64,000 nt of DNA, taken from positions 33,053,501 through 33,117,500 of the forward strand of contig NC_091971.1 in assembly GCF_036711975.1 (NCBI RefSeq). Reading direction: 5' to 3'. The DNA comes from Onthophagus taurus. Its lineage: Eukaryota; Arthropoda; Insecta; Coleoptera; Scarabaeidae. Both the position numbers and the translations under genes were made by a program. The notes under the pieces were generated by a model. It was given only the letters and a program-made list of their open reading frames with translations. It was not told the DNA's origin and did no database searches. Of this stretch, positions 16,200 to 63,387 are shown piece by piece. Numbering within the stretch: the stretch's first letter is position 1; each line of letters begins with the position of its first letter.

Positions 16200-16483
16200 G
16201 ATCGCGATTGACAAGTTTCAGATTGAGAACGATAAAGGAGAAAGCAAAGGGACTTACGGTACTTGTTTCTATGGCGTTGGTCGCTTCCAGTACGTGATGG
16301 ACGAATTTCTTCTATCTCGAATTTGTTGAGAGTTGCATGAAGTAGAAATTCGGTCTTCGAACACTCCTGGCGAATGTTCTCCAAAAAGCTGCGTAACTGG
16401 CGGGCCAACGTTGTCGAATTTAATTTAATTTTACACGCCGCATCAAGGAACCGAAGACACTTAAATCTTCTTATATTTTCCCT

Positions 16484-23674: not shown

Positions 23675-26600
23675 TCACAATATATCTAATGTTAAAAATC
23701 GTTGTAAATATACGGGTAACGGAAGTCTCTCTACTGTAACCATCAATCGTTTTCCCAACCACCTTCTTATCCTAATCCTGCATAAATCTCTTAAAAAAAG
23801 AGGCTTAGACATTGTATTTACAATAAATTCAAAAATGTTGTCATTTTTATCATCTTTATCATTAAACTTCTTTAGATCCTTTATTCTCTTCAAATCAAAT
23901 CCGGCCAATATTATCAATTTGACCAACTCGAAACTTCCTTTCTTCTTCGCTAAATACAAAGTGTTCAACCCGCTTTTGTCATCCAATAAATTAACGTTAA
24001 TGCCGTATTTCACTAATATACAAGCAGCACAAATATTTTGTAAATCGAGAGAGTAGAAGAAAGGATTTCCGTAATGACTGGGAGAGTTTAAATTAACATC
24101 ATAATTTACAAGAAGATCTAAAAATTGTTTAAATAAATCCGGGCTTTTTATTGCTTGGATGCAGTTGTGGAGAGCCGTCTGGCCATTTATTGGGTTTGTA
24201 GCGTTTGCAGAAACGCCTATTTAAAAATAAAAAATTGTGCATGATATTTTCAACTTGAAACTGTATAATTTAAATATGAGTTACTTACCATTCTCCAGTA
24301 AATATTTAGCAATCGAAAACTGCTGATTAGAACATGCACGCATAAGTGGGGTATTGCCCCCATCATCTCTAACTGTTAATACTGCTCCCCCTCTGTGTAA
24401 AATCTTCACCGCCTCAAAATCACCTTTCGTTATCACTAAATGTAACAGAAATTGACTTTGCATGATTTTCGCTCCATAATCCACCAAATCTCGAGCTACA
24501 TCCATCATATCATTTAAAATCACATACAACATAACTGTTTTTCGATAAACATCTTCGTGATTCAACTTCGTGCCAGCACAAATTAACATTTTGGCGACCT
24601 CGTCATGTCGGTTTATAACCGCTTTGTGTAGAGCCGATTGCTCTTCAATATCGAACACGTTCACATCCGCTCTATTCTTTAAGAGGAAACGAACTATTTC
24701 AACGGAACCCAACTTTGATGCAATGTGTAATGGAGTTTCTTTGCGTTCTGTAAAGGCGTTAACGTTTGCACCTTTGCTTAGAAGATATTTTACTAGTTGG
24801 GGTCGGTTGTATTTGGTTGCCAAGTGGAGAGGGGTGAATGTTTCTGAATCTGAATCATTCACCGATACTTCGGGACACGTTTCTAAGAGATATTGAGTTA
24901 TGTCTAAGTATCCTGAAAGAACAAAAGAAAGGATTTATGCAAAAACAACATATTTCATTTTTAAATTTAAAAACATTTATTTAGGTCAAAACGCACAAAT
25001 ATTATCTTAAATGATAATAATAATGATGATGTCATTTAAGGGGATCAAACATAGACTCTCCTACTCAATCCCGACTCTCACCTCTTTGTGGTGATAGTCC
25101 CTATCAACCTGAGTAACTCTTCGGAGACCGGCTAACCTACCCCGCTAGAAGCTACGTCAAGGGCAACGAGGTCAGAAGAAATGGTCCTCTGAAAAGGGGA
25201 TTGGACTGTCCGGGAAAAACACCAATTACGAAACATGCCTCGGAAAAGGATATAAATATTAATACACACTTAATGAAATTGATAACTTCAGACAGGATGT
25301 TACTGTCGACAATAAGTAAGATAACTAGGAGCAGGAGCCCTTATAAAAGGGCAGCACACAATACACTATAGAGACGGAAGTAATAATAAACACGTGCTTG
25401 GTTGTGGATTTGTTGTCAACAGGAAAGTACAAAAAGGAGTGACGGCTTTTAAATCTATCGGCGACAGGATATACTATATTCGAATCAAAATGACGTTGCA
25501 AAGTTTATCGGTTTTCTCGATACATGCACCTACTGAGGCAAAGACCAGGAAGAAAAAGAATAGTTCTGAGAATTACAATCGATGTATCTCATTCACACAA
25601 AGCATCCACAAAAGAACGGGGTGTCTCTAGATGGAAGAACAATGAATCAAATTGATCATGTGGTAGTGGATGGCAGATCATATTCTAGTATCACAGACGT
25701 AAGAAGCCACAGAGAAACTGCTTCGAACTCTGACCACTACCTTGTCAAAATCAAACTGCGAGAAATGATTTGACTACACACAAAGATTGCGAATAGATAT
25801 TAAGGCCCAAATTAATTATAAGACTAGAGTTAGGAAAGAATCACAAAACATGGAAGTTGAGAAGGAAAAAAGGAGGTCAGTAGATTCTTGCTGGACAACC
25901 ATTAAAACGATGCTGCTAAAGATTGCCAAAAAGGTAGTTGGAACTCAAGAAGAAGTAACGAGTAATGACTGGTATGAGGAGGAATGCAAGGGCTATTGAC
26001 AAAACAAGGCGTAATAAAGAATGATACAACGACCTACTAGAAGTCAAACAGAAGAAATCAATAGATTAAGAAGAGAAGCAAATCAAATTTGCCTAGGGCA
26101 TTCTACATAAAGTTGATCCAAAGTTTTTCATAAAATTCAAAAATTACTACATATGTTAGGGTTGCATTTTAAAAAAAATGACTTTTAGGGCTTTTCTGAA
26201 GTTCAACTTTGATATTATAATTTGAGCACCTGTATAGACCTCACTGATCCTCCGATAGTACATAACCACCACAATATTAACAACACAACATTTTTCTTTC
26301 CGGCGTCGACGAAGATACGTTGGTTTTTCTGGCGAAATTCCGCATTTTGTTTAATTTTTATGCGTTTTACTTTACGCTAGCACTGTATATGACTCGTCCC
26401 AAAAATTACAAGATAATCGGGATACTATGAACATGAACATGGGAAAGGAGCAGAGATTTGTGAGAACAATTGGCAGGCATAGCTTGTAGGAAGATACTAA
26501 CGAAAATGGTGATGATTTTTTTATTAATTTTGCAGTGAGTAAGAGAAAAATGTGGTAGTAAGCTCAATATATTTCACCCATCGGGATATACACAAGGCTG

Positions 26601-27980: not shown

Positions 27981-29252
27981 ATGCAAAACGTTATTAATAG
28001 TGTTAAGGGAACCGCTTTAGGTGTTGCGGAATATTTAACGCCGGTTTTAAAGGTATGTATGTATCATGTTTGTTTATCTAGTTAGTTTTTTTGACCTTAT
28101 TACTTATATCTAATGTTCTAAATTACAATCAGAAATATTCCACATCTTATCAGCATATTAAAAGATATAAAATAAATATATTTGTTCTTATTGATTCAAA
28201 TTTGAGGTTATTTATAATGATCAAAACTTTTCATTTAGGAATCGAAATTTAAGGAGACTGGTGTTTTAACTCCGGAAGAATTTATTGTGGCTGGAGACCA
28301 TTTGGTTCATCATTGTCCCACCTGGCAATGGTCTCCGGGCGACGAGTCTAAAACAAAACCTTACCTACCCAAAGACAAACAATTCTTAATTACACGCAAT
28401 GTACCTTGCCCTCGCCGTTGCGAACAAATGGAATATCAAGAAGAATTCCAAAGAGTGATTGAATCGGATGATGCTGATAATGGATGGGTGGACACTCATC
28501 ATTACGATCCGAATATTTCAAATTTAGATGAAAAGATTAATGAGATGAATTTGGAAAAAGAACCTGAGAAATCTGAGAGTATGGAAGAAGCTGCACTGAA
28601 AACTGAAAAAGACGATGGCAGCGGTGATGAAGATGAGGAAGATGAAGAGGACGCCGAGGATATGGAAGCCTTTGAGGAAAGCGGAATGTTGGAAGGTGAT
28701 GTGGGGGCGAGAGTTTTACCGGGAAAGATTGAGAATAAAGTTAAGGGTGGTGAAGAAATTGGAGAGATTGTTCATACAAGAACTTACGATTTGCATATAA
28801 CTTATGATAAATATTACCAAACTCCGAGGATTTGGTTAACCGGTTATGATGAGGTGAATCATGAAAAAATTATCTAAATTATTTAATTTCATTTATTTTC
28901 ATATTTATATAGAAACACAAACCATTAACGATTCAAGAAACTTACGAAGATGTTAGCAAAGATTATGCTATGAAAACTGTTACAATGGAGACTCACCCCC
29001 ATTTATCTGTTCCCAGAATGGCTTCAGTTCATCCATGCAGGTAATAATTATTTTAAAAAAATCAGAAAGTTTAAATCTATTTCATACATTATTTCTTTAA
29101 GGCATGCTGAAGTTATGAAGAGCATCATAGAAACTGTTACGGAAGATGGAGGTGAATTAGGAGTTCATATGTACTTAATAATTTTCTTAAAGTTTTTGCA
29201 AAGTGTTATTCCGACGATAGAATACGATTATACTCAAAGTTTTACTATGTAA
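27981..29252 (+). CDS. ATG3: Autophagy E2-like enzyme ATG3
   Basis: Four exons (27981-28052, 28239-28853, 28913-29040, 29102-29252) give 321 residues (human 314). The N-terminus [20 protein letters not shown] is the conserved membrane-sensing helix. [20 protein letters not shown] follows, then an acidic flexible region (about 130-165, [17 protein letters not shown]) and [20 protein letters not shown]. The catalytic HPC motif has its cysteine at about residue 271 (SVHPCRHAEVMK). The end is [12 protein letters not shown]3 is the cytosolic E2-like enzyme that takes Atg8/LC3 from ATG7 and conjugates it to phosphatidylethanolamine during autophagosome growth. All key parts are intact and all junctions are GT-AG. 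It is the best conserved gene in the window. Confidence 0.97.
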
Positions 29253-44500: not shown

Positions 44501-47500
44501 GGATTAAGTTCCACGTTGTATCGCCTTCTTCATATCCCATTCTCCTTTATTACACCAAACATTTTCCTCACTGTTTTTCTTTCAAATTATTCTTTGTTCT
44601 CTCTGTCATAATCAGAGCCACGACGTTTCGGGCTGTTGATGTCACCATCTGTATAGAGCAGCGAACGGGTTATAGCGTAGTGGTAACATGCTTCTATCGA
44701 GCACATCGATGTGCCGCAACGTAACGATACTGGTTGAATGCTGGCCCATGTAAAATTTGGGAGGGTTCTCTGCGGTGCAGCATTCAATATGTGTTTGGCC
44801 GATTGTCCGACTAAAACTGAACCAGTGGCGTGGTATACTATATGTGGCGTGATGTGGTCAATGTGGCCCGAGTCTCTACTGTAAGGCGACGAGCCGCCAA
44901 TGAGTTGCCCGACAACGTCGCGGCTCTGGTCATAATCCATGTCTCGCATCCATAGTTTTTAGACAAAGTAGATTCTGTTCCTTATGTGATAATTACATTG
45001 ATATATTTGTTAACTATGGTAGTTGTCTCTGATGATGGCAGGGCCACAAGTAGCTAGACAATACACATACAGGGTGCCCATTATGTATGGAATATCGTAT
45101 ACATGTATACGATATATACATACATGTATACATGTATACATGTATGTATATCTTGGTAGGTATCAACTTTATAAAAAAACATTTTATACAAAAGTTGTTT
45201 AATATTTTATTTGTCATAATAAGACAGCATTCAATTGTTCTTACTTCAGAAAACAAATGAGCAACGAATAACACTTGAAGTTTTTTAAATGGTAATGTAC
45301 CCTTTCGTTAGGCTCATTTGAAAGAGATTTTTTTCTCTTTACGATGACGTAAAATTTTAGTGCCCTTGTATCAGAAAATTTTTGAAAAAAATGTAAAAAT
45401 TGTTAATTAAGAAAATTAACTAATAACATAAATCTAGATATCCGAGATCGTCAAGTACTTCGTAGTACCTCGAATTATTGGAAATGTACACTGATTTTTC
45501 GTTTATTTGTTTTATTTTGTATGTAAATTTAATTTGCGGTAATAATTCGAGGTACTTGACGAGCTTGGATATCTAGATTAACGCCATTGATTAATTTTTA
45601 TTAATAAACAATTTTTACATTTTCCTCAAAAATTTTCTGATGTAAGGGTACAAAAATTTTACGTGATCGTAAAGAGAAAAGTAATCTCTATTAAATGAGC
45701 CTAACGAAACGGTACATTGCCATTTAAAAAAATTCAAGTGTTATTCGTTACTCATTTGCTTTCTGAATTAAAAACAATTGAATGCAGTCTTATTATGGCA
45801 AATAAAATATTAAACAACTTTTATATAAAATGTTTTTTTATAAAGCTAACATTTACCGAGATATATACTATATTCCATACATAATGGGTACCCTGTATAA
45901 TAAAGACCAGTTTACGTACATAAAAGTCTTTAAATTTATTTTTAATGTTTTCTGGATCTGAAGTATTGTGTAGATACTGCGGGAATTTGTAGCTTTCCTC
46001 GTAAAATCTCTCTAATTTTATACATTTAATTTAAAAATTAACATTGACTTATTTTGTTTTAGAAATTAACAAATGAAACAGGAATACTTTTAGTATTTCC
46101 TAATCCGCAAAATTATTTAGATGGAATTTATAAGTGTAAAGCTTTTTATGGGAGCACACTTCTAGAAACAAGAGTAAGAGTCGTAACGATAGGTAAATTT
46201 ATCAAAAAATTTTAACCGTTTTTATTTTAACTTAATTAAATTGACAGATGGAAATCCTGTTACACCGCAAATTTTTGAATTATTTAATATAACAGCATCG
46301 ATTGAAAGTGATACGAAAATTATATGTAAAGCAAACGGAAGACCAACTCCGAAGGTTTTATTTAAAAAATTAAATAAAGCTGATCTCTTTCAAATTGGTT
46401 CTCAACCATTTGACGATAGAATTCTCATAGAAAACATTAACAACAATGCAAAAGGAGAAACTTATGGAATTTTAACGATACGTAACTTAAGCCGAGCAGA
46501 TGATGGCCTCTATGAATGTATCGCCGACAATGAAATCGGTAAAGCATTCAGAATCGGTCATATTACCGTCGAATTCCCTCCAGTATTCAACAATAACGAT
46601 AACGTTAACGAAGTATGGACGTGGCAAAACAACCCCGTTAAATTAACTTGCGTTGCAGAATCTATTCCAAACTCAACAATAAAATGGAGATATAACAGCA
46701 ATGAATTAGATAGGGATAATCCGAGTCTTAGAATTGAAGGATACGGACCAAAATCACATCTAATTGTTACACCAGGATCAGAAAATAAACTTGACGCACA
46801 TTACGAGTGTGTTGCTATGAATCGATTGGGACAAAACCATAAAATGTTTAGTTTAAAAAGCGCTGATCCCCCTTGTTCAATTTCTCAAGTTAAAGTTAAT
46901 ACAGTAACCCCCACAACAATTAAATTCGAAATTGTTAGACAGCAACTGTTTTCCGAGATGCCTTTAAAAGCATTCATTTGTAAATATCGAAGAATTGATC
47001 AAACATCGGATTTCGCGAAAAATATCACTTGGAATGTTAGTAAGTAATGAAAAAAAAATTGTACACAAAGCATGTCCACAAAACTTTAATTAATTAAGAA
47101 TATTATTTTTAGATGCTTCATATATAATTAATAACTTAGAACCTCAAAAAACGTATCATTTCACATTTGCCGCAGTTAACGATGTGGGAATTGGTAGTTG
47201 GAGTGGACCAAATCTTCACTTCACAATGCCGAGACGAGCTGTGCCAGCAGAGCCTATAATTTTAGTAACACTTGGCGGTTTTGCAAATGTTTCAATTCAC
47301 GAACAAGTCATCGTCAGTTCTTATGCGGATCGCTATGAATTAAGGTGGAATGTATCGAATGATAATGGACATCCTTTGGATTATTATATTATCAGATATT
47401 GCGAGGTAATAACAATTTTAGAAAACTTTTCTACTTTGTTGATTGTAAATACATATATCTACAATTTGACTTTAATTACAAAACGGCAATATATTTTAAA

Positions 47501-47810: not shown

Positions 47811-50800
47811 TTGGGATGCAAACGGGACAAGCCCAGCGAAGCATCCACTAAAAATATACAATATTATAAACTAAAAACAAGAATTTAGCAATAAGTAACA
47901 AAAAAAAAAATATCAAACAGGTTAACAAAAAAAAATAGCAACAGAAATAAAATTTAACAAAAAAGTGAAACTTAAGCAAAACTAATAATCAAAAATATTG
48001 AAAACAAAAAATCAATCAAAAACAGAATTAACGTCGTAAGTCAAACGGCGCACGAGATGCACATAGGAGATCATTAACCAATTTCCTAAATGTAGACCGG
48101 GGAGTAGCAAACAAGTCTAAATCAGAACAAAAATTGTTATAAGAAAACATGAGACGAGGGACCACGGAGTTAGAAAACGCATTTGTATTGGTACAAGGCA
48201 CGTAGAATACCGATAAATCACGGGATGGTCGAACAGGAATCCTAAACTGTAACTGAGATAGAATCGCGGAGCAGTCAACAGTGCCGTTACTCACTTTATA
48301 AAGCAGCATTAAATCGTTACTAATGCGCCTGGAAGAGAGTTGAGGGACTCCAAATATTAAGCATCGCTGTGTGTAATCACAGTATGGTAAGTAGAATTTT
48401 CGCGATAGGTACCGAAGAAAACGTTTTTGAACTTGTTCTAGTCGATCAATGTATATATGGTATTGAGGGTTCCAAACAGAAGATGCATAGTTAAGGATAG
48501 AAGAAACGAAGGCGAAGTAAAGAGAACGAATACAGGATAAGTTAGTAAAAGGACGGGAGACACGACAAATAAATCCGAACATGCGAGAAGCCTTATTAAC
48601 AATAAAATCGATATGAGCTGAAAACGCAAGTTTAGAATCAAAGAGAACCCCAAGATCTCGAACACAATCAGATGGTATAAGAGTATTAGGGCCGAGGGAA
48701 TAATCGAAAACAATGGGATAGCGTTTGCGTGTAAATGTAATTTTCGTGCATTTATCGTGATTGATGAAAAGATTGTTGTTTACACAATAAGCCTGTAATC
48801 GGACCAAGTCCTCCTGCAATTTTTCGCAGTCGTCAGGTGAACAAATCGTGGTAAATATTTTGCTATCGTCAGCGTATAGCAGAAACTTGGAGTAATGAAA
48901 ACACGCATGAATGTCATTGATATATAGCAGAAACAACAACGGTCCCAAATGACTGCCTTGCGCCACACCGGAAGTTATCTCTTTGAAGGAAGAGCGATAG
49001 CCATTAATGGTAACAGCCTGTGATCTGCTAGAGATGTAAGAAGATAACCAATAAATCAAACCAACAGGGATGTCATAATTAAAGAGTTTCTTAAAAAGAA
49101 TTCCGTGATCTATTCTGTCAAATGCCTTACTGTAGTCTGTATATACAGCATCCACCTGGTAATTTTTGTCTAGAGCATTCAGTAAAAAATTAGAAAATGT
49201 GATTAGGTTAGACTCCACTGACCTGCCACGAAAAAAGCCGTGTTGCTCCGGGATTATGTAAGATTTAACCTTAAAGAAAAGCAGATCGTAAACTAGACGT
49301 TCAAAGATCTTAGAGGCAATTGACAGAATAGAAATAGGTCTGTAGTTGACGACTAAATTTCGGTCGCCAGCCTTATGGATGGGCAGTATTAGAGCTTTTT
49401 TCCATTCGGATGGGAAAATAGCCGTTCGCAGAGAAGTATTGAAAATGTAAAAAAGTGGTTCAGTAAGCACTGATGCACACTCACGAAAAAGCACGCCTGG
49501 TAGGCCGTCCGGACCCGCACCCGCTCTAGGATTCACAAGTGACAACGCCTGTAGAATATCATCACGTGAGAACCAAGGTGCGATTTCCGAAGAAGAGCAG
49601 TCGCGGATATCAACTAAAGTTCCATCAACAAAGACAGAACTAAAATAGTCAACAAACAGTTTGCAAATTTCCTCCCCACCCTCAACCACTCGATCACCAT
49701 ACGACATCTTACTGGGAATACTCATGCTGCCTTTTTTCCTCGATTTAATAAAAGACCACAGACTGTTAGGATTATCGGACAAGCTAGTCTGTGTAGCCTC
49801 TAAGTATAGCTTATAATCAGCTGCAATTAAAGTTTTAGACCGAGTACGGAGCAGACGAAAGGTTTCATAGTGAAGGCGATTACCTGTAGTCTTCCATTTT
49901 TTGTGAAATTTTAATTTTTCCTTAATGGCCTTGATCGTTGGCAGGGAATACCAGTTAGGAAATCTGCATTTAAAAGTAATTTTGTGAGGAATAAATTCAT
50001 CAACTGCTCCGCGAACAACTGAATAAAACACTTCAAGCGCCTCGTCAACTGGTAAGTGACTAATAGCCGCACCCCAGTCTACAGACGCGAGTGATGTACG
50101 GATACCTGTATAGTTAGCCTTGTGAAAAAGATATTTACGCGAGCAGTTTTCGCGGAGGGAATGCAATAAATTAAATTTAATTGAAAAAGTTAAAGCAGGA
50201 TGATGGGTGTCCGCGTGCAAAAGTGGATCAAGGCTTTGAGAAAAATCAGAGATGTTATAGGAGTTACTAAGAATAAGGTCCAAGGTTCTGTCGTTAGCAT
50301 TACGTACGCCGTTGTACTGCTCAAAATTACAATAAGAAAACGAAGTTAAAAACAATCGTGAACGAGCATCATTGGCACTCGATGGCAATAAACCAAGCGA
50401 TTGCGACGAATACCATGAAATATGAGGTAGATTAAAATCACCAAAAATCAAAATCTTATGGTCAGGGTAGTGGTCGCAAACGCGATGCAAAGTTACCAGA
50501 AATGCGTCAAGCGAGTCAAAGTCCGCGGGTGGGAGATAAACACAACAAAGCAGCAACCGAGTACCACCGCACTGCACAGAAAGCCACAGGTCTTCAGCGG
50601 ACGCACTTTCAGCAAGTCTAAAACAGTCGATCGTGAAACTTTGACCGTGATCGCTCCGTGACTTGACCGATCGTTGATCGATAGTGTGAATAGGCCTTTA
50701 CTATTCAAGAATAACTTGATATGTTGAAAGAATAAAACTAATCAAGCAACGGTATTAACTACATTGTCATTCTTAATACCTAAATTCGTAAACTTCCGGA

Positions 50801-53800: not shown

Positions 53801-55669
53801 CCATGTTGCCGTCCTAAAAACATTAAAGAAACACGGGTACAGGTCGTACAAGGTACAAAAAAGTCAGGAACTCTGCGAGAACGATAATATTACAAGGGCG
53901 GAATTTTGCTTTACTATGATGGAAATGGCCAACGGAAATGTTGATTTTATAAAAAACATTTTATTTACCGATGAATCTACATTTCCTTTGCATGGTCGGC
54001 ATAATCCCAGCGTTGCTCGATATTGGTACACAATATCCCCAAAAATTAAATGTTTGGGCTGGCTTAGTAGGTGACTATATTATCGGTCCTTTTTTCATAG
54101 AAGGAAATTTAAATGGTCATAAGTATTTAAACATTTTGCAAAATGACGTAATCCCATCGCTTCAACAATTAGACAATGTTCAATCGGGAAGTATCTGGTT
54201 CCAACAAGATGGTTGCCCGGCTCACAACAGCCGGCAAGTTAAAGAGTATCTTAACGCACAATTTCCAAATCGTGTAATATCTATTTGCGGAACGTTAACT
54301 AGGCCGCCTAGATCACCAGATTTAGCCCCCAATGATTTTTTTCTATGGGGATATTTAAAATCGAAAATTTTTGTCTTATTTGAATTTCATTTATTATATT
54401 AGTTATTATTTTTATAATATTTCTTATCATTGAACGATGTCAAACGACTGACTGCTCTTCGATCCACTACTCTTGCGATTCCCCTCCCACAAACATACTC
54501 CGCGCGCATATGCACACACACAAGTATACTTATACGTACGTCCGTGTTGGGTGTATCTCCTAAAATTAAAGTTACCAATCGGTATAAAAAAATTGTATTA
54601 TTTTGGCAAGTACTACGTCCTAGTAAAGTTTCCCGATTAGAAACTGAACCACCCTGTATTTCCTTGTATCTTATTATTTGCGTACCGATTAGTCTCCTCA
54701 ACTATTTTCTTGATCAACTCATCGGTAAAGAACAACTTGAAGAACTACTACCACTATTGAACGTATCGTCTCTGGAACTTTTAGTCAACGTGTGTAGGAT
54801 GCTATAAGACATAAAATATATGAAAACTCTGCTGATTTCTCTGCTAGAGACACTGAAAGACTGACTCGACTAACTGAAATTCGTAATGACCCTACAAAGG
54901 GCTCGCATCGTAAGTTTACATTATAATTTCATTAAGATGTAACTTGTCTTCTTACATGCGTAGGCTACATGCGTATCTTATCGTTTAGGACGACAGACGT
55001 ATGCCAGCCACAGCGCCAGATGTGGACGGCTGTATGCCGACACGCGTTCGCAACGATAAAAAGGCTTTATTTACCATGTAGCTGAATATGTTGGGAAAAC
55101 ATTTGAGCAATCAATGACTCTAAGTGCATGTAACATCAATCCTGGAAACTACCATATTATTGGGACGTGTTTATTACCGACGTTTTTAGAAGTGCTGTAA
55201 CAGGTCAATCAATGAAACAAACTCAAATTAAAAGAGTAATTTTCGCGTCCTAGCACATCGTAACTATAACATTTCAACTTTGAAACTATTGAAATTACAA
55301 TTGTATCAACTGCTAACTAACAACCTTTTAAGCAAATGGGCAATATACACTAATTTTGAAATTCTAATATTATGATACACACTTTGTTTTTTGAATTCTT
55401 TCTAGACTCATTGGATTAATGGTGAATGGAAAGATTCAGAATCAAAATGCTGTTCGGAAATAATAGAACCTACGTTCCAAAGCTACGAGATGAAGGAACT
55501 ACAACCGGACACAACGTACAACATTGAGCTTAGGGCTCATAACGCGCTAGGTGCGAGTACAACAGCGCAAATGAGGGTTAAAACGATCGTGGAAGCCTTT
55601 TCAGGAAGTAATTCATCAACTAATTCGTTCAATCTTCTTATTTTGTTCGTTTACGCGGTATTTTATTAG
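35521..55669 (+). CDS. GPI-anchored Ig/FN3 cell-adhesion protein (Fas2/NCAM type)
   Basis: Six coding exons (35521-35581, 37383-37582, 46063-46192, 46248-47039, 47113-47405, 55406-55669) join in consistent phase to give 579 residues. Exon 1 is a signal peptide (MGSMPFYMLIITVTSF). Three Ig domains follow: SLSLTCRPRV...LEWRD...GIYKCKAFYG (split over two exons), KIICKANGRP...DGLYECIADN, and KLTCVAES...AHYECVAMN. Then come two FN3 domains (about 320-420 and 425-545, with SYIINNLEPQKTYHFTFAAV and MKELQPDTTYNIELRAHN). The tail is SGSNSSTNSFNLLILFVYAVFY-like: small residues, then a hydrophobic end, as in GPI-anchor signals. Drosophila Fas2 has five Ig domains, so this is a shorter relative; the Drosophila gene fipi is one candidate orthologue. 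It acts at the cell surface, probably in neural adhesion (inference). Introns 2 and 5 are about 8 kb each and full of transposons. A possible poly(A) signal is near 55727. Confidence 0.85.
36414..37148 (+). pseudogene. LINE C-terminus and 3' tail in intron 1
   Basis: The frames contain TSVGALRTLGFITR, LYSTLVRSKLEYCCIVWTP, IATIEKVQRKFIRF and, after a shift, YGLQSLEDRRRL. This is the conserved end of Jockey/CR1-group ORF2. The 3' end runs into a (TTA)n microsatellite (37128-37148), a tail type seen in this group. The copy is 5'-truncated and frameshifted. It is in the same orientation as the host gene. Confidence 0.8.
37583..38087. other. Intron 2, 5' part; no gene recognised
   Basis: The segment 37880-38080 is richer in GC (CCCCTCGGGGTCGGGGCGGC) and may be repeat-derived, but it carries no recognisable motif. 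Confidence 0.3.
38088..38377. mobile_element. MITE with CACTGAGAAAAAT inverted ends
   Basis: CACTGAGAAAAAT (38088-38100) and ATTTTTCTCAGTG (38365-38377) are perfect inverted copies enclosing about 290 bp of AT-rich sequence. No ORF. Confidence 0.7.
38641..38830. repeat. AAATCRAACA-type minisatellite
   Basis: About 19 imperfect copies of a 9-10 bp unit such as AACAAATCGA or CAAATCAAA. Read in reverse it gives an artefactual FDLFDLFDL repeat protein, which I do not call as a gene. Confidence 0.85.
38859..39279. mobile_element. 421-bp palindromic MITE, TA-flanked
   Basis: CAGCGTGTCCCGTATCTTCC and its inverse form the ends, flanked by TA. The arms match for about 150 bp (CATCAGAGCATTATACGG, GCACGGGAACTGTTTAA). 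A more GC-rich centre (39050-39120) lacks an ORF. The arms are nearly identical, so the copy is young. Confidence 0.88.
39460..41473 (-). mobile_element. Mariner-like element with inverted arms of about 300-550 bp
   Basis: The right end GGGGTTACTTTACGCTAGCACTG lies next to TA; its inner mate at 39460-39800 is the inverted GTAACCCCCCCCC...GAGATATCAATATGAGC and following sequence. The left terminus is degraded. It carries a minus-strand transposase (40103-40844). Related fragments are at 26220-26390, 51936-52476 and 60240-60310. Confidence 0.8.
40103..40844 (-). pseudogene. Mariner-like (DD41D-type) transposase, decayed
   Basis: From ATG 40844 the frame reads MARRSLEHKIGGILIFPRAD and NERFPEHPISRKYLRELV (DNA-binding domain) to about 40524. 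Shifted frames then give SDECTFFLDGKLHRQNVRY (first catalytic Asp) and INVWTGILGN. The last part (to 40103) has FNGRWIGRRGPIEWPTRSPD and LTPLDFFLWC, the third acidic motif. The second acidic motif is degraded (QNPDDFEMAPPHYVA). Stops and frameshifts make it inactive. It lies within the palindromic arms of the element 39460-41473. Confidence 0.8.
41474..42602. other. Intron 2, no gene; small GC-rich palindrome inside
   Basis: The segment 42013-42110 is an imperfect hairpin: GGCTCGCGGCGTACCACGCT against, inverted, GGCTAGCGGCACGCCACGCT, each followed by CTGYTTGCC. It resembles a tiny hAT-type MITE. The rest shows no coding signal. Confidence 0.5.
42861..43331. mobile_element. 471-bp palindromic MITE, TA-flanked
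   Basis: Ends CAGCCGGATTCAGAGTAAG and, inverted, CAGTCTGATTCAGAGTAAG are flanked by TA. GAGCCACACT...ACTACTTTCAAAAT is repeated inverted in the other arm. It is inserted in the gypsy remnant. Confidence 0.85.
43861..44317. mobile_element. 457-bp palindromic MITE, TA-flanked
   Basis: Ends CCGGGTGTCCCTCAGAAGTG and its inverse are flanked by TA. Arms of about 130 bp match (ATGAAATCATT, CGTAATAATCCGTT). It interrupts the integrase core right after the TTTAEATI-type motif. Confidence 0.88.
44471..45069. other. Intron 2, dispersed repeat and possible SINE-like part
   Basis: 44480-44585 matches 21285-21420. At 44670-44690 TTATAGCGTAGTGGTAACAT resembles a tRNA D-arm/A box, and CTGGTTGAATGCTGG near 44729 weakly resembles a B box. 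The spacing is larger than in a tRNA. I make no firm call. Confidence 0.25.
45070..45895. mobile_element. 826-bp foldback element, TA-flanked
   Basis: Ends CAGGGTGCCCATTATGTATG and, inverted, CAGGGTACCCATTATGTATG are flanked by TA. The arms match for about 350 bp, including GGTACTTGACGA-type and GTTAGGCTCATTT blocks. The left arm holds a palindromic run of ATACATGTAT units (45100-45145). No ORF. Confidence 0.85.
47779..50638 (-). mobile_element. Jockey/CR1-group LINE, 5'-truncated, young
   Basis: On the minus strand it starts inside the endonuclease (TIDCFRLAESASAEDLWLSV) and ends in a poly(A) tail (29 T on the plus strand at 47779-47807) after about 220 bp of 3' UTR. The body has one uninterrupted ORF. 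The insertion lies inside the Harbinger-like MITE at a TTTGC/CTTT site. An intact frame over about 2.6 kb indicates recent arrival. Confidence 0.9.
48028..50638 (-). CDS. LINE ORF2: endonuclease (partial) and reverse transcriptase
   Basis: About 870 residues are open to the stop at 48028. There is no true start, because the 5' end is truncated. The endonuclease part keeps ILIFGDFNLPHISW, RTLDLILSN and DTHHPALTF. The linker has FIPHKITFKCRFPNWY. The reverse transcriptase shows NYRPISILSIASKIFERLVY, YTDYSKAFDRIDH, SGVAQGSHLGPLLFLLYIND and the active site LLYADDSKIF. Then come CVRDLGVLFDSKLAFSAHID and LNYASSVWNP with VQKRFLRYL. No RNase H is seen. The RT looks catalytically complete, but endonuclease truncation and lack of a promoter should prevent self-mobilisation. 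It is antisense in intron 5 of the Ig/FN3 gene. Confidence 0.9.
50701..51416. other. Intron 5, no gene seen
   Basis: AT-rich, with no recognisable coding region, inverted repeat or transposon motif. Confidence 0.35.
51417..51931. repeat. Half copy of the foldback element at 10269-11418
   Basis: It shares AAATCACTGACATTTAAACG, TTTTTGGAGGGGTGTAGCTC and the end TCATTCAGATACAGCCTG followed by TA. Only the right arm is present. Confidence 0.8.
51936..52476. repeat. End fragment of the 39.5-41.5 kb mariner-like family
   Basis: CAGTGCTAGCGTAAAGTAAC at the left, then sequence nearly identical in inverted orientation to 40931-41473, including ATGTTTTTATGAAACAATCA. It stops at GGTACCTTGAAA. It lies directly beside the foldback half at 51417-51931, joined at a TATA. 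Confidence 0.82.
52480..53165. mobile_element. Palindromic MITE, GGGGATGAAATTCAC ends
   Basis: The left end GGGGATGAAATTCACCACCC and the right end, inverted, GGGGATGAAATTCACAACCC match. The arms share AAAGAGACAAAAAAGTACCA and TATGGGTTGTAAAGCT over roughly 170 bp. No ORF. Confidence 0.78.
53290..54658 (+). mobile_element. Mariner-like element with long inverted repeats, left end truncated
   Basis: ACCGATTGGTAACTTTAATT and GGAGATACACCCAACACGGA at 53335-53385 are inverted at 54545-54585. Inverted similarity continues inward (ACGTACGTATAAGTATAC). The right terminus ends CACCCTG next to TA at 54657-54659. The outer left part has been lost or replaced. It carries a plus-strand transposase. Confidence 0.72.
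53539..54402 (+). pseudogene. Mariner-like (DD41D-type) transposase, frameshifted
   Basis: ATG 53539 starts MLFTVAEKVQIIKWFYGGNS with the first helix-turn-helix. A shift near 53710 moves to TKVCADVERNKNQSSRQVAE and HVAVLKTLKKHGYRSYKV. The first catalytic motif is ILFTDESTFPLHG. A second shift near 54030 leads to QKLNVWAGLVGDYIIGPFF, then SIWFQQDGCPAHNSRQVKEY (second Asp) and SPDLAPNDFFLWGYLKSKIF (third Asp). Exactly 41 residues lie between the last two acids by my count. All catalytic acids are present, so only two indels separate it from a complete frame; they are real in this sequence and the C-terminus also looks short. Confidence 0.85.
54660..55405. other. Intron 5, 3' part; no gene seen
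   Basis: No motif recognised. It ends at the acceptor TTCTTTCTAG before the last exon of the Ig/FN3 gene. Confidence 0.35.
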
Positions 55670-56669
55670 ACGATAAAAAAATTTGGAAGAAAATGTTTAC
55701 TCTTTTTGATTACATAATGTTAAAAAAATAAATGTGAATTAAATATAAAACAGTTGTTGATTTTCTTTGCATTTTTTTCTTTCTCCTAGAGAAGAAGTTT
55801 TACGTAGGTATTTAATACAGATCGTATTCACCGCAGAAGAATATCAATTTTTTGTATAAAAGAATTCATTCTTACGTCAATCATTTAAGTAGTATAGCTA
55901 TGTGCGTTCTGGACCAAAATCCGTTAAGATTTAACATTGGGGCAGTGTTGCCACCTTTGCAGCAGCAATATTCCCTTTCTGTGTACTAAAAATTCCCTTT
56001 TATTTACTGCCGAAATTTTGTTGGGACTAAAAGTTTTCTTCAAAAAAAAAAAGGTTGTTAAGAGGCTACTTTACCATACAGTTCGGCAAATTACAAAAAA
56101 CATATATTATTTATAAAAATAATTGGATGAAATTTTGTACATAGCTTCTTCCAACAATTATACATAACGCAAGGTGAAAATTTTTGAAATTTTCCAAAAA
56201 AAAGGGGCATATTCTTCAATATTAAAGAATTTGGTCATTGTTTTTTAGCTTGCATGATAGTATACATGAAAATAGTAATATTTTTCAAATGAAATTTTTC
56301 TGAATTTTTAGTAATAAAGGAATAGTTTGTAATTTGCTAAAATTGTAAAAAGGTAGCGTAAAAATGAATATTTTCCGTCATGATTCCCACGAAGTATTAC
56401 TACCGCGTTAGACCCGCCTCCGGCCGACTGAGCGACGCTGCTAAGCGACGCCGTTCACCGATGCTCTTTATTTTATCTATTGCTTCTTTAATGTGGTAGA
56501 GAAAATAATCATTTGTAAAAGTGCGTTTTGAACTTTGTTTTTAGTTATTTGTTAGTTATTATTGTGTAATTTAACTACATTTTTGGGTTTATAGTTTACT
56601 GTTTATAGTTTATTGTTATTTTCTCGTTTACTTTAGTGTTAGTTAAGTTTATGTAAAGTTTTATAAACA
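55670..56669. other. Intergenic between the Ig/FN3 gene and the MULE-YqaJ gene
   Basis: A poly(A) signal AATAAA near 55727 suits the adhesion gene. A GC-richer patch at 56398-56460 (GACCCGCCTCCGGCCGAC) precedes the next gene and may be part of its element. I could not find an inverted mate for it after 59961. Confidence 0.4.
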
Positions 56670-59600
56670 ATGGGTAAGTACATACACCCAGAAAGGAAAG
56701 ATGGTTGTCGCAAAAACCTATCACTTAGTACTCGAAGACGTTCTCGAAAAAGGAGTAATAGACGATAATAATTTACGATATATATTTTTGTAAAAGCTAA
56801 ATTCCCATTTTTATAGTACGAGCCGGACGACAGAAAATTCAATTGAAAAATGTGTTCCATCTGATAGGTAAGTTAATTTTTATTAATTTAATTTAAAAAG
56901 AATAAATCAACAGTAAAAATTGTTTTGAAAATGTTTATATTAGTTGTATCAACACAGACGAAAACAATACATTATTTGAAACGATACCATGCGGTGATGA
57001 GACAAATAATATAAATGATGCAAAATTATACGGTCGTCGAATATTTGACATAAAAAGTTTATTAGACCAAATACTGACAGTTGGGAATAATCATGAACCT
57101 TTTAACTGCAACATAACTAACATGAAATTTATAAAGGAGTCAAGGGAAGGGCTTAGGAGCTCATTTCTTTTACAATGTACTATGTGCGGGATACAAAAGG
57201 AGCTTTACACAGAAGAAAGCAAAGAGTCTATTGACATAAACTCTGCTGCTGTTTTTGGAAGTATATCTGTCGGTACCGGATATACACAGACAGAACAATT
57301 ATTGTTATGTATGGATATACCATTTATGTCAATAAAAACATTCCAAAAATATCAAGAAACGGTAAGTGATAAAATCAGGGATGAAGCATGGCAGTCTATG
57401 AAGAACGCAGGTGAAGAAGAATGTAATTTAGCCAAAGCTTCAGGAGAAGTAAACAAAGACGGAATTCCAATGATAACCGTAATTGCGGATGGTGTCTGGT
57501 GTAAACGCTCATACAATGTCAATTACGACGCATCGTCCGGAGTTGTACTGCAAATAGTTGTGTGTACAGGGTGATTCAAGCCACCCGTATATTCAATTTT
57601 TTTTAAACGGATCTAACTAAATAGTTGAAACAAAAAATTATCGAGAAATAAAAATACGTTTATTATAATTTTTTAAGAACCATTTCATTATTAAACTGGT
57701 GACAGCTGTGTAGCCAAGTTTTCAAATAAACTAGTCTGTACAAGTGATCTAAATCACCCTATACATATTATATTCCACAAGAATACTATCATAATTATTA
57801 TGTTTTCAGGGTTGTATCATAGGCCAAAAACAGGAAAAGTATTATATATAGGTGTTAAAAATAAATATTGCTGTATCTGTGCCCAAGCTAAAGAACAAAG
57901 TCAAGACGCTAAACCGCATAAGTGTTTTAAAAATTATTCTGGTACATCAACATCCATGGAAGCAGACATTATTACCGAAGGATTTAAAAGTAGTTTGACT
58001 GTGCATAATTTAATTTATAATAAATTAGTAGGTGATGGCGACAGTAGCGTATATAAAAAATTATTAATATCGAAACCATACGGTAACTTGTTAGTGCAAA
58101 AGGTTGAATGCCGAAATCATCTGCTACGAAACTTCTCAACAAAGCTGCGGGATATAGCATGTAAGCAACAGCCTTTTTGTAATAATGTTTGAAACTTAGT
58201 AGTATTAAAATTTTGATTGAAGATAGTGGAAACATCAATACAATTAATTCCATAATTATTATTGTGTAAATCTGTATAATATAACTTCTTCCCAATCATA
58301 CAACGTGAAAATTGATAACTTTGTTGTATTGTTGGTAGTGAAAATGTGTCCCTTTCACCATAAATTTAATAATACTTATATTTATAATAATAATTTAATA
58401 ATTTTTCAAATTTCTTCTGCACCGATTAATTTTGGTATGACATGATAATCTATGGTTAATAAATCGGGGAAAAAAATAGATTGAATTGACACAATGAGAA
58501 CCTTTAACATATTGACAAAAATTAAGTGTGTCAATTCAATTGTTTATCAATTGAATTATATTATTGTTTTTCAATTGTTCATGTCTGTTAACTAACTGCC
58601 AATGTGCTACTTAAACAAATAATACATACCAACAGTTATGAATTTTTTCTTAACTTTGTATAAACACTAATATAAATGATTTTTTAGTACGGAAGCGAAG
58701 CAATTCAAAAAATATTCCAGTGTCACCTTTCCTGCGAAATCAACTTCGAGAGAAATCGCTTCGAATGCGAATTTGCATAACCAAAGTAGTACGCCATAGA
58801 ATAAACGAAAACATAACATTTGAAGAAAAAATGAAACTTTTAAGTGAAGACATTTCAAATTGCCCTTCGCATGTATTTGGAGAACATTCAAAATGTAGGG
58901 AAATTGGGTATTTTGAATGTAAGAACACGGAGGAAGAAAGAAATTTAGTACCGGATACGAAGAATTGCGGTTTATACGACGATATGATTTGCTTAAACCG
59001 ATTAATACAAAATGTTAGCAGTTTGTTATTGAATATGAACACTAATCGAGCAGAACATTATAATAGCATCGTATGCAAATTCATTGGAGGGAAACGAATA
59101 AATTTTTCTAGAAGAGGGTCTTATCAAACGAGATGTGAAGCTTCTGCACTATCGTTCAATTCGCAAGAATCGTATTACGATACAATGTACCGATCGCTAT
59201 CACATAGAGAAGAAAGCTCGATTCTGATTCAAAAACATCGATCAAGAATTCTTCGACAACGACAGTTACAGCAAAATCGAAAACGTCGTCATTATGGTGC
59301 TGTAGATAATGATAGCAATTTGGTTACAAGTGACATTTCAAACGAAGACTACAAAAGAAAGAAAGCAGAATTTATTGCAAACTTACAGGATGGATGTGTC
59401 AATAGAAATAAAACCGAAATTCTTAGCAGAGGCCAAAGAACCAATCACAACTGGATCCAGGAAAGGTCTTTGAGCCTAACTGCATCGAGGTTTGGTGAAG
59501 TGTGTAAGATGAGGAATAGTACATCTTGCATAAATAAAGTAAAATCCATCTTGTATTCGAAATTTGCTGGAAACAATACCACTAAATATGGCCAAGACCA

Positions 59601-59961
59601 TGAATGGCTTGCAGTAAAAGAATTCGAAAAGAAATATAACTTGTCAGTAAACTCTTGCGGGCTATTTCTCCACAAGGAGTATGGATTCTTAGCTGCAAGT
59701 CCAGATGGAGTAGTTGAAAACGAAGACGCCACTGTAGAGGTGAAGTGTCCAGCAAATTCAAAAAATTTACATCCATTCGAAGCAATAAACCAAAAAATAA
59801 TTACATTTGCTTTCATAAATGATAGCGGAAATTTTCAGTTGCATCGAAAGCATAATTATTATTATCAAGTACAGAGTCAACTTGAAATAGCAGACCGCGA
59901 AAAATGTTATTTTGTATGTTGGACATCCAAAGGCTTCGAAGTAGAAGTAAAAATTTCGTAG
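56670..59961 (+). CDS. Mutator-like transposase joined to a YqaJ-type nuclease domain
   Basis: The exons I read are 56817-56867, 56944-57544, 57810-58160 and 58688-59961. A basic start (MGKYIHPERKDGCRKNLS, ATG 56670) may be the first exon, but its donor is unclear. The transposase part has GRRIFDIKSLLDQIL, LLQCTMCGIQKELY, SISVGTGYTQTEQLL, a first catalytic Asp in MITVIADGVWCKRSYN, NKYCCICAQAKE and PHKCFKNYSGTSTSMEADII, the LVGDGDSSVYKKLL motif and VECRNHLLRNF. The last exon ends in a PD-(D/E)xK nuclease fold of YqaJ type: SLTASRFGEVC, GFLAASPDGVV, TVEVKCPAN and NYYYQVQSQL then CYFVCW. The two activities would be DDE strand transfer and DNA end processing; the fusion role is unknown. One frameshift near 57822 remains, so this copy may be inactive. 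A poly(A) signal is near 60009. Confidence 0.78.
57567..57761. mobile_element. 195-bp MITE in an intron of the MULE-YqaJ gene
   Basis: The left end CAGGGTGATTCAAGCC and the right end, inverted, TAGGGTGATTTAGATC are both flanked by TA. It fills most of the intron 57545-57809. Confidence 0.65.
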
Positions 59962-60239
59962 AAAAGACAAGTTTGGGAACTCCTCGAATTTCGTTTTTTA
60001 TTGATTAATAATAAATAAAATTGTTTATTATAATTTTTTTTACGTTTCAGATATACAGGGATCGTACTTTTTGGAAAACTATGTTTCAAATATTAAATTT
60101 TTTTTTTTCAATTGTTTATTACCTGGGTTAATTGATCCAAGGCTTCCAAGAGGTTTGCAAATACGGGACCCACAAAGAAAACTTTGTGAAAAATAAAACT
60201 CACAGGTTGTGAAAATGTTTTTTTTTGGTATTGTTTCCA

Positions 60240-60310
60240 TTTAAAAAAACAAAATAGAACCATTTTCCGAAAAAACTAAAATTGATAAATAATTTTTCAT
60301 GCAAAAATAT
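60240..60310. repeat. Short fragment of the 39.5-41.5 kb mariner-like family
   Basis: CCATTTAAAAAAACAAA, then CCATTTTCCGAAAAAACTAAA, matches 41297-41345. No terminal repeat is present. Confidence 0.6.
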
Positions 60311-60384
60311 TTAGGCTAATAAAAAATAAAAATTGATATATATGGCTCATGTTTAGAAGCGGGGATGATTGGATGAAGGGTGAG

Positions 60385-60600
60385 CCTCAACTGAAAAGAA
60401 GAGCCTGGTACATGAGAGACCCCAAAGATAGCCTTATGCTGGAAAACACTTCCAGGACACAGACAAGCGAAAAGTATGATAACTCTGTCGCAAAAGAAAG
60501 TCAAAGAAGTTTCATGCCTTAGCAAAAAGAACCTAAGGTCGCTCTCTGGTTTCCTGATCGGCCATACACCCCTAAAATACCACAACCGAGAAACCAAGAC
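60385..60600 (+). pseudogene. LINE RNase H fragment (I/R1-type)
   Basis: The plus strand reads CWKTLPGHRQAKSMITLSQK, then CLSKKNLRSLSGFLIGHTPL and KYHNRE. The pattern W..L.G.RQAK..I......L..L.R..LR.L.G.LTGH..L..H is the end of the RNase H domain of I- and R1-group LINEs. It is truncated on both sides, so dead. Confidence 0.75.
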
Positions 60601-60603
60601 ACG

Positions 60604-60984
60604 TATATAAGATTGTTTATGTACAATTAAGTTATTAAATTTTGTATTTCAACTTTGTAGCTACCTCCGCTTTCAACTAAAATTACCTACACGGTTGTTC
60701 TGAATCACTTGCATATCAAACGAGCACATAATAATAAAAGAAAAGATGTAATTGATAAATTTTGTACCAAACTTTTCACATTCCATCTATTGCGACTATG
60801 TCCCCTTCAATATAAAATGTATTTATAAATGTTATTTTATAAACAAATAAATAATATAATATTATTTCACTCCCCAAAATTGTTTATTGTATTTGCGATT
60901 GATTTTTGCCTTACACTGAATTACAAATCCACAATCTTAGATGTCCTCGTCTTTCTCTAATTTCTCTGTTAAAAAAATTAATAT
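60604..60984. other. AT-rich, no gene seen
   Basis: No coding region or repeat is recognised between the RNase H fragment and the (TTGGG)n array. Confidence 0.4.
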
Positions 60985-61101
60985 TGTATTGGGTTGGGTT
61001 GGGTTGGGTTGGGTTGGGTTGGGTTGTGTTGGGTTGTGTTGTGTTGGGTTGGGTTGGGTTGGGTTGGGTTTGGTTGGGTTGGGTTGGGTTGGGTTGGGTT
61101 T
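60985..61101 (+). repeat. (TTGGG)n array, about 23 units
   Basis: TTGGG is repeated head to tail with a few TTGTG variants and one TTTGG change. The motif differs by one base from the common insect telomere unit TTAGG. It directly adjoins the 5' end of an R1-clade LINE. Whether it is telomeric or an interstitial microsatellite cannot be told here. Confidence 0.95.
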
Positions 61102-61704
61102 TCCTCAGGGGCCCAGTGAGTTACTGGGTACGGGCTTAGCGAACCCGAGGCCGCCTGAGCTCGAGGAGCATACCTCGTTAAAAAACGGGTCCGGCTGGCC
61201 CGGCCGGTAGCACCCCACAAAGGGCTCCTTGCCTGGGACACAGGTGAAGTGGGGAGGACCAGCAAGAAGATGTTGCCTATTCCGGTACGGCTCCGGACTG
61301 TTGTGACGTGTTATGTAATGTTTTATGTTACGTGTTATGTGCATGTCCGATCGGCGTGCATGTAGGCGAACCTGGGAGTGCTTTGGAACTGGATGGCTTG
61401 CAACCGGACAGGAAAGAGGCTGATGTGAGTTTACTCTGCCGAAGGAACGTCTCGTGAGCGTCAGGGACCGGCCCCTTCGGGACCCCGATCGGGTAGTCCT
61501 ATATGGATGGATGGATCGGAGCCACCATTGCACCAGGCGAGTATGTATCCGTCCGTGTATTCCGGGATACATTAAGCGGTGGTCAGGCCCCACGGAACTG
61601 GGGTAGAGGATTTCGGCCAGATGGTCGTATCCTTGAGGGTATACCCGTTCTTGACCTTTACCGGCCCGCCTCTTATAGGACGATGCGCCGGCTAAAACAA
61701 GACC

Positions 61705-63387
61705 ATGGTGAATAAAGATGCAACAAAACCGGAAGGGTGTGGAAAGGAGAGAGAAGCAAGTGGAGCTAAAAGTATAGAAAATACCAGCAAGCTTAGGAAG
61801 ATGTTTACGCATGCTAGGAGTAACTCTCTAGGGGGTGAATATAAGAAAAGAAAGATAACAGATAGTCTTGTGGAAGTTACCGATGTAGAAGATCCATACA
61901 ATCAACAGTTAAGCTCAGAGGTGTTCGTTATAAAAGAAGCATTAGACGCAATTACAAAATTAACGAAGGATTTGAGTGGGTGGATGGAAAACAACACAAG
62001 AAGAGAAGTTAAGGATTTGACACAGAGACTCGAAAGACAGGTGGAAGTAATTAACAGACAGTCTATAAAGGATTGGTTAGATAGACACAAATATGAAAAA
62101 ATACAGAAAATGACGTTTGATGTGGATGTACAGACACAATCTGATACCAGAGAGATTGCTACACAGACAAAGGACTGGACGAAGTTGCAAACGCTGAAGC
62201 AAATGGACAGCTATGAAGAATGGCTTGCAGTTAAAGATGAGGATTGGGAAGACGAATTGTACACAAACACGGAAATTAAGAGTGGAAATCCCATAAAAGC
62301 AGAGGACAATGTAATAAAGATAATCGTAGTGGAGCCCGAAGATGTTGAAATGGAAAAAGGGATACAGAGGGTATTCAGAGATAGATACCCGGAAATATCC
62401 ATGATCAAGGATGATTTTGGATTTGTAGAACAAAACTACAAAATAGGAACAAAGAAGGGAATGGAGGAGGGAAGGAGAAAAGTTGTTAAATTTAAATATG
62501 ATGGAACGGAGAAGGACATGTATGGAAAGGTGGTAGAGTTAAAAAGAGAAACACAAACAGAAAGGGAATTGGGAATACATATGATAAACAAATTGCCAAT
62601 CGAAGTGTTTAGAAAAATGATTGAGGCTATCTTTCATGGGTTGGAGACTAGAGTTTATATTTACGGGACGCCCGCGTCTAATAAGGCTAATACAGATGGT
62701 AAAGGAAGAACTAGCTACGCCTTGGTTGTGGGGAAAGGAGATAAGACGTTTAAGGAGGCAGTCAAAGATATCAGAGGAGTGCTTGGTGCCCCAGAAATAA
62801 GGGACTCAATCAGAGGTATAAGCAGCACAAAGGATGGGAAAGTGCTAGTAACAACAGATAAGGACAATGAAGTTCTAAAGAAAGCGCAGGAGGCGATACA
62901 AAAAATGTCTGACGATCAAATAGAGGTAAGGAGATTAGGTGAGCAAAATGAAGTGCTGTTTATTAATGGGATGGATGCGTCGATAGAAAAGGAAGATGTT
63001 CGAGGTGTACTAAATGAGACACTGGGGCGAGACAACTCTGGCTTGCAGCTGAGCGATCTGAGACCCCGTAGAAATGGTACTCAAGCTATTACAGTCACAA
63101 TGGGTAGCAAGGAGGCGCAAAAACTGATAAAGATGGGGGTCATAAAAATAGGCCTTACCAGATGTAGCATAGAGAAAAGAATCAAAATGAACAGATGCTT
63201 TCGATGCTGGGAGTATAATCATACAGCCAAGGAATGTAAGGCTACGGATAGATCGAAGCTGTGTAAAAAGGAAGAGGCGTGTCCGCTTTGTAACATGACA
63301 GGCCATAAATCAGGTACTGGGAAGTGTAAAATATTTAATGAGGCACTCACCGCTGCAAGAAGATCCATACGCAAACGCAATGGATAA
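61705..63387 (+). CDS. R1-clade LINE ORF1 (Gag-like nucleic-acid-binding protein)
   Basis: 560 residues from ATG 61705, uninterrupted. The N-terminal half is charged and helical (about 60-140, with KEALDAITKLTKDLSGWMEN). The middle has GRTSYALVVGKGDKTFKEA and EVLFINGMDASIEKEDV, an RRM-like stretch seen in ORF1 proteins of this clade. Near the end are cysteine knuckles (CFRCWEYNHTAKEC and CPLCNMTGHKSGTGKC, with an extra cysteine between). It would coat LINE RNA and help carry it to the nucleus. The last codons (CGC AAT GGA TAA) overlap the ORF2 ATG by 8 nt. No internal stop or shift was found. Confidence 0.9.
   Translation: MVNKDATKPEGCGKEREASGAKSIENTSKLRKMFTHARSNSLGGEYKKRKITDSLVEVTDVEDPYNQQLSSEVFVIKEALDAITKLTKDLSGWMENNTRREVKDLTQRLERQVEVINRQSIKDWLDRHKYEKIQKMTFDVDVQTQSDTREIATQTKDWTKLQTLKQMDSYEEWLAVKDEDWEDELYTNTEIKSGNPIKAEDNVIKIIVVEPEDVEMEKGIQRVFRDRYPEISMIKDDFGFVEQNYKIGTKKGMEEGRRKVVKFKYDGTEKDMYGKVVELKRETQTERELGIHMINKLPIEVFRKMIEAIFHGLETRVYIYGTPASNKANTDGKGRTSYALVVGKGDKTFKEAVKDIRGVLGAPEIRDSIRGISSTKDGKVLVTTDKDNEVLKKAQEAIQKMSDDQIEVRRLGEQNEVLFINGMDASIEKEDVRGVLNETLGRDNSGLQLSDLRPRRNGTQAITVTMGSKEAQKLIKMGVIKIGLTRCSIEKRIKMNRCFRCWEYNHTAKECKATDRSKLCKKEEACPLCNMTGHKSGTGKCKIFNEALTAARRSIRKRNG

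Follow-up and report, generated by a model that had tools for sequence, protein, structure and literature searches.

A probable inactive KolobokE copy in Onthophagus taurus: a DDE transposase joined to a lambda-exonuclease-type nuclease

Results

The transposase-nuclease gene and its surroundings

The window analyzed here is a stretch of 64,000 nt from Onthophagus taurus (NC_091971.1:33,053,501-33,117,500), and its coordinates are counted from window position 1. Pfam searches revealed two matches to PF20700 'Mutator-like transposase', one at 56942-57571 (E 1.4e-45, profile 1-182 of 357) and one at 57812-58174 (E 1.2e-39, profile 181-290), followed on the same plus strand by a match to PF09588 (YqaJ) on the frame 58684-59961 (E 1e-18, profile 2-149 of 150; domain at about 59452-59898). 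A weaker match to Viral_alk_exo (E 1.5e-4) lies in the same exon as YqaJ. A sequence-only reading of this DNA had described a transposase and a YqaJ nuclease in one reading order within an intron-containing gene, and had proposed a profile search for the two domains; both were found, in that order and on one strand.

The gene structure was resolved from 56944 downstream (Table 1), with the 435-aa frame of the third exon counted from stop to stop. Splice phases are consistent between the exons 57810-58160 and 58688-59961, and there is a break near 57822 after the exon 56944-57544. An alignment of three copies, the window copy, L035 and L036, showed that the reading register of the window copy is shifted at this point, which rules out an artefact of intron phase and confirms the single frameshift noted before, a lesion that belongs to the window copy. 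L035 and L036 bear other lesions of their own. Two homologous frames cross the same protein stretch without introns and therefore support the introns of the window copy: a 584-aa frame in L044 (2129-3880, minus strand), which starts ahead of the first catalytic D, includes the putative E and reaches the first nuclease motif, and a 426-aa open frame in L043 (2670-3947, plus strand), which spans the stretch that contains the window intron 58161-58687.

Table 1. Coordinates of the element in the window, of its coding parts and of one related locus.
Feature	Position	Strand	Basis
TTAA at left border, target site duplication	56058..56061		Exact TTAAGAGGCTACTTTACC match at 56058-56075; 16/16 copies of the BLAST set alike
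Left terminal inverted repeat GAGGCTACTTTACCATACAG	56062..56081	+	Agreement with right end: 13/16 letters in L019, 11/16 in L035
Kolobok-type element body, about 210 right-hand bases missing	56058..60990	+	Collinear with 5245-bp L035 (C3:8052726-8057970)
Transposase exon with first catalytic D (IADGVW)	56944..57544	+	PF20700 profile 1-182; splice sites read from sequence; intron-free frame L044
Intron, found also in L035 and L036	57545..57809	+	Sequence reading; copy alignment
Transposase exon with CCHC finger, second D (GDGDSS), CxxH (CRNH) and frameshift at about 57822	57810..58160	+	PF20700 profile 181-290; motifs by eye
Exon with transposase end (zinc finger, putative catalytic E in NTNRAEHYNS) and nuclease, open until stop	58688..59961	+	435-aa frame; intron-free homologue L043
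YqaJ / lambda-exonuclease-like PD-(D/E)xK nuclease domain	59452..59898	+	PF09588 E 1e-18; profile matches to 3syy and 1avq
L045, related locus	G000:C3:8341800-8347300		PF20700, 592-aa open frame

The intron 57545-57809 (+) contains a stretch with inverted ends, CAGGGTGATTCA... and ...TAAATCACCCTA, adjoining TA. This stretch is perhaps an old miniature transposon; it is not recent, because L035 and L036 have it in common with the window copy.

Other genes and elements lie elsewhere in the window. Immunoglobulin-domain exons at 46193-47044 (+; Ig_3 E 2.3e-18) and a last exon at 55406-55669 (+), which has a weak FN3 match below the curated cut-off, resemble a cell-adhesion gene, and the Kolobok copy begins about 390 bases after that last exon. 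A polyprotein with DUF1759, DUF1758 and DUF5641 at 13017-16217 (-) is presumably BEL/Pao-like. There is a non-LTR reverse transcriptase at 48031-50697 (-), and further exons carry ankyrin repeats (24284-24934, -) and an autophagy active-site domain (28239-28874, +; PF03987). Outside the transposase-nuclease gene, a MULE-type piece is present at 4630-5001 (+), a transposase-like stretch with matches to the ZSWIM1-3 RNaseH-like domain PF21056 (E 7.9e-29) and to the MULE domain PF10551 (E 8.6e-12).

Borders and copies of the element

The element proved larger than the interval first drawn around the gene, reaching from a left TTAA at 56058-56061 to about 60990. Twenty loci were compared by BLAST, and borders were set without presupposing any motif. 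Sixteen of them start with TTAAGAGGCTACTTTACC and finish with GGTAAAGTGGGCTCTTAA, to within a few flanking letters that they share, and their flanks are unrelated; relatives are thus delimited by TTAA-GAGGCTACTTTACC...GGTAAAGTGGGCTC-TTAA. The list of 16 leaves out L028 (complex, more than one copy), L037 (without a right end), the truncated L036, and L035, which possesses both ends and is shown apart from the list. The window element is 95-97% identical to L035 in the three longest shared blocks and 93-94% identical to L036 in long blocks.

Elsewhere, a head-to-tail pair of copies has one TTAA in common (a distance of 4 bp), the outcome predicted for a TTAA that is a duplicated target rather than a part of the element. 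The joined flanks of 17 insertions, compared with the fetched loci, gave no match spanning an element-free site, and one joined-flank query against the genome matched just the two flanks of the same insertion. Because no empty site was found by these comparisons, the target duplication is argued from the borders and the shared TTAA. The sequence-only reading had suggested aligning genomic copies to find terminal inverted repeats and target duplications; what the copies show is inverted ends with TTAA borders.

The right terminal repeat is absent from the window; from about 60990 its place is taken by a (TTGGG)n tract and a retrotransposon-like stretch. A search for the missing right tail, covering the remainder of the window and a further 6 kb, gave only matches of chance length besides the known start of the tail. 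A search for terminal inverted repeats limited to the window found none, as the element has lost its right end there. The (TTGGG)n tract (60989-61100) leads the retrotransposon-like stretch (60989-63387, +), which truncates the right end of the Kolobok copy. A 563-aa frame in this stretch shows zinc-knuckle-like cysteines by eye and has no Pfam match at E 0.01.

A search of the beetle's own genome (290.8 Mb, 33 contigs) with window positions 56360-60990 gave at least 117 DNA matches, a lower bound since 40 of 1235 candidates were scored. The left terminus occurs 78 times with at most 2 mismatches, compared with 0 for the reversed pattern. Right ends, 71 in number, were taken from genome matches of the pattern GCAAAGTGGGCTCTTAA, and 68 of the 78 left ends pair with one of them within 20 kb. 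The distance is between 2.5 and 3.3 kb in 62 of the 68 pairs, which are too short for the 5.2-kb full form, and 5245 bp in one (L035); five are odd (4 bp, 953 bp, 8.3 kb, 9.1 kb and 16.9 kb). The short copies examined are internal-deletion derivatives in which the transposase exon survives in its left part and the nuclease as a fragment. Lacking a full transposase, such copies must be moved in trans. When compared with L019, 15 loci were 96.4-99.97% identical over most of their length, so the family has moved recently; L028 and L029 were about 90% identical.

The pattern GCAAAGTGGGCTCTTAA itself was found, with at most 2 mismatches, at 506 places in the genome (351 forward and 155 reverse), compared with 26 for the reversed pattern. 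Many of the matches listed read TCAAAGTTGGCTCTTAA, perhaps the terminus of a different and larger family of TTAA type. In L002 and in L005 a second nuclease-like frame follows the first at about 0.7-1.3 kb (1366-2103 and 2760-3035 in L002; 1366-2004 and 2720-2995 in L005); these second frames are perhaps partial duplications.

Ends of related families

We paired TTAA sites around transposase frames of other families in the genome. In L044, TTAA-GAGGAATGG stands at both ends around the transposase and the nuclease, with the first 9 terminal letters identical; this was the best of 300 TTAA pairs, and 4 of 500 shuffles equaled it. L045 has TTAA and 17 identical terminal letters around its PF20700 frame, an agreement that 0 of 500 shuffles reached, and no nuclease was detected in it. 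L045 is possibly an intact Kolobok family without an accessory nuclease. A second locus, G000:C7:10027346-10028407, equals L045 in PF20700 score and in its frame length of 592 aa, the two features by which it was compared. For L042 and L043, pairing gave no ends above shuffles (289/500 and 200/500 reached the best pair). This miss means little, because the same method also misses the known ends of L035, whose leading match is 3 letters (473/500 shuffles reached the best).

Superfamily assignment

Kolobok elements are marked by a TTAA target duplication, 5'-RR...YY-3' ends, a C/DxxH motif and a zinc finger located between that motif and the final E; KolobokE, KolobokP, KolobokD and Kolobok5 are described as having, in addition, a CCHC finger that follows the first catalytic D (Kojima & Bao 2022, PMC9587614). 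In the window family, TTAA stands at both ends in 16 of 16 aligned copies with unrelated flanks, and the letters adjoining it are GA...TC; they are GA...TC in L044 and GG...CC in L045. The translated exons, read by eye, contain apparent DDE, C/DxxH and zinc-finger motifs (ADGVW, GDGDSS, CRNH, HVFGEHSKC...C and NRAE). A CCHC finger was likewise recognized by eye as CCIC...HKC in the window, CCIC...HIC in L042 and CCLC...HVC in L044. The arrangement of transposase and nuclease seen in the window has already been named KolobokE (PMC9587614). We assign the locus to KolobokE by these described features and the domain arrangement rather than by a tree with reference KolobokE transposases, and we put at roughly 0.93 the probability that it is a KolobokE DNA transposon copy that has become inactive, from an element that inserts at TTAA and in which a single element protein comprises a DDE transposase and, downstream, a nuclease of the lambda-exonuclease/YqaJ type.

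Another TTAA-targeting superfamily, piggyBac, does not fit: the ends are GA...TC, and Pfam at E up to 1 showed none of its transposase domain on the exons. The termini of piggyBac are other than 5'-RR, a contrast drawn in PMC9587614.

The sequence-only reading had placed the transposase in the Mutator superfamily, and Pfam indeed calls PF20700 'Mutator-like transposase'. The target duplication of MULEs and MuDR is about 8-11 bp. By eye, no direct repeat longer than TTAA was seen in the flanks of the 16 copies or of a further set of 17 copies picked by their TTAA-containing ends. At E up to 1, the MULE domain PF10551 gave no match on the transposase exons, where PF20700 is the sole match, although PF10551 is present in the unrelated stretch at 4630-5001. 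The C/DxxH motif fits a Mutator-like element, being common to MuDR, hAT, P and Kolobok (PMC9587614, PMC3706591), but the TTAA borders, the 5'-GA...TC-3' ends and the zinc fingers, as described for Kolobok lineages, speak against Mutator membership, which we reject as highly improbable. Since three PF20700 families (the window family, L044 and L045) have inverted, Kolobok-type TTAA ends with 5'-RR termini, the Pfam name is no proof of Mutator membership, and the earlier assignment, a misreading driven by a label, is corrected here.

A single-copy host gene, which the earlier reading had named as one outcome that would count against it, might be suspected from the multiple exons and the position just downstream of the Ig/FN3-like exons, but has next to no chance given the many copies (the genome matches and left ends counted above), the terminal repeats and the lesions of the window copy.

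Fusion and constraint of the nuclease

Throughout the genome PF20700 gave 122 matches (114 of 565 candidates scored), which merged to 104 loci, and PF09588 gave 107 matches. At 29 of the 104 PF20700 loci a PF09588 match lies within 6 kb downstream on the same strand, compared with a chance expectation of about 0.1 in all; within the range examined, the nearest PF09588 is in some other arrangement at 0 of 104, and 75 of 104 have none. The spacing between the two domains is exactly 562 bp in five pairs and 565 bp in one. PF20700 is missing upstream of 78 of the 107 PF09588 matches, and those of the 78 that also appeared in the element DNA search are deleted derivatives. In L042 (2958-4772) both domains lie in a single 605-aa open frame. 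This frame, together with the same-strand order in 29 of 29 pairs, rules out a separate downstream gene or transcript for the nuclease, the other outcome that the sequence-only reading had set against itself.

Ten of the nuclease sequences in this genome were combined into a profile, which was compared with solved structures. It matched LHK-Exo (3syy, E 2.1e-15), protein R354 (5yet, E 2.1e-12) and lambda exonuclease (1avq, E 7.4e-11); the remaining matches were RNA polymerase subunits at E 0.16 and worse, which look like chance. Phage records were 24-30% identical to the window nuclease among the 20 listed of 29 matches, and no relatives in viral contigs were confirmed. Across the ten sequences, with a mean column identity of 31%, E317 never varies, and near-invariance is seen for D351, E362 and K364. 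Between the two families L042 and L044, pN is 0.256 over 361 codons of the transposase part and 0.240 over 180 codons of the nuclease, with synonymous sites saturated (pS 0.77 and 0.78). The two pN values are nearly equal: constraint on the nuclease is no looser than on the transposase. For close pairs the ratios, on few changes, were 0.90 and 0.46 (window copy and L035) and 0.88 (L002 and L005), near-neutral values such as decaying copies should give.

Discussion

The nuclease of this family is fused to the transposase, inherited with it as a unit and held under constraint with it. Thus, within one genome, a lambda-type nuclease is co-inherited with its transposase and equally constrained, and a related TTAA element does without it. 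What the nuclease does thereby becomes a testable question. The sequence-only reading had called the pairing of the two domains unexplained; the arrangement itself is in print as KolobokE, and for the role of the nuclease that judgment holds, as the part of PMC9587614 available to us gives none.

Lambda exonuclease degrades 5' strands from duplex ends that carry a 5' phosphate, and an excision break would present ends of this kind. A tentative proposal is that the nuclease resects the 5' strands of the excision break, so that repair restores the element. The transposase would excise the element and leave a chromosomal break, at which the tethered nuclease would resect the 5' strands to give 3' single strands. 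These might favor repair off the sister or the homologue, by which the element would be copied back and its copy number would rise. If such repair were interrupted, internally deleted copies could arise, by far the commonest form of the window family. On a bolder and rather doubtful extension of this proposal, KolobokE would be a 'cut and copy back' transposon that gains copies without replicative transposition, with the deleted copies as a by-product. DNA transposons that lack a nuclease of this sort also commonly have internally deleted copies, and for this reason such copies do not strongly favor the resection model.

Alternatively, transposition may require the nuclease to trim either the element's own ends or the cut intermediate while the element is being excised or inserted. 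Its fusion to the transposase in L042 and its equal constraint would suit such a task, and processing of the cleaved 3' end by a DEDDy exonuclease has been proposed by the authors of PMC3706591 for some Dada transposases. This explanation is weakened by L045, which has the same transposase domain and TTAA ends and no detected nuclease, by the second locus of equal score and frame length, and by the 75 of 104 PF20700 loci without YqaJ in range, though many of these are fragments. We consider end-trimming possible and somewhat unlikely. Because L045 is bounded by TTAA without a detected nuclease, an accessory step is more likely than required chemistry, that is, the nuclease more likely aids after or beside the basic reaction.

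It is improbable that the nuclease has a task away from the break, such as attacking viruses, competing elements or intermediates of host repair. The nearest solved relatives are phage enzymes, and the identity to phage exonucleases among the matches listed points the same way, but the fusion suggests that the nuclease acts where the transposase acts. Very unlikely, too, is the view that the element acquired the nuclease as a passenger without a task. Near-neutral change in the close pairs, which differ by few substitutions, and the spread of deleted copies without a full nuclease would agree with a passenger; however, the cross-family pN is as low in the nuclease as in the transposase, D351, E362 and K364 hardly vary at 31% mean identity, and the deleted copies also lack a full transposase and so were moved in trans. 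Resection of the excision break, as an aid to a reaction carried out by the transposase, is the role that we propose, tentatively, for the KolobokE nuclease.

The literature searched contained no paper combining 'Mutator-like transposase' with YqaJ, and the name KolobokE was found there in no paper besides PMC9587614. Expanded YqaJ domains are listed as viral in a clam genome paper, which adds, in the part available, that fusion of elements of this sort with transposases can occur (PMC7826175). The main text of a 2026 survey of arthropod MULEs contains no word starting with 'nuclease' (PMC13359780). The window element resembles the MULEs and MuDR treated there in its DDE transposase and C/DxxH motif and differs from them in its TTAA borders. 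The Xenopus XKol/T2-MITE Kolobok elements share the TTAA target and the RR termini; the passages describing them mention no nuclease, and no word in the main text starts with 'nuclease' (PMC6004289). KolobokP and KolobokD, like the window element, join a Kolobok transposase with an accessory nuclease, but according to the text available the nuclease of KolobokP is a His-Me finger enzyme on the other strand, in an element with long direct terminal repeats, and that of KolobokD is a DEDDh exonuclease (PMC9587614). From KolobokE as described in the available part of the same paper we found no difference, except that the window copy is broken and without its right end. The two-domain arrangement is already published, and what deserves note here is the corrected classification and the clear within-genome evidence that the nuclease is maintained. 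Compared with lambda exonuclease (1avq) and LHK-Exo (3syy), which match its nuclease domain by profile, including the SPDG...EVK motif, the window nuclease differs by its fusion to a transposase.
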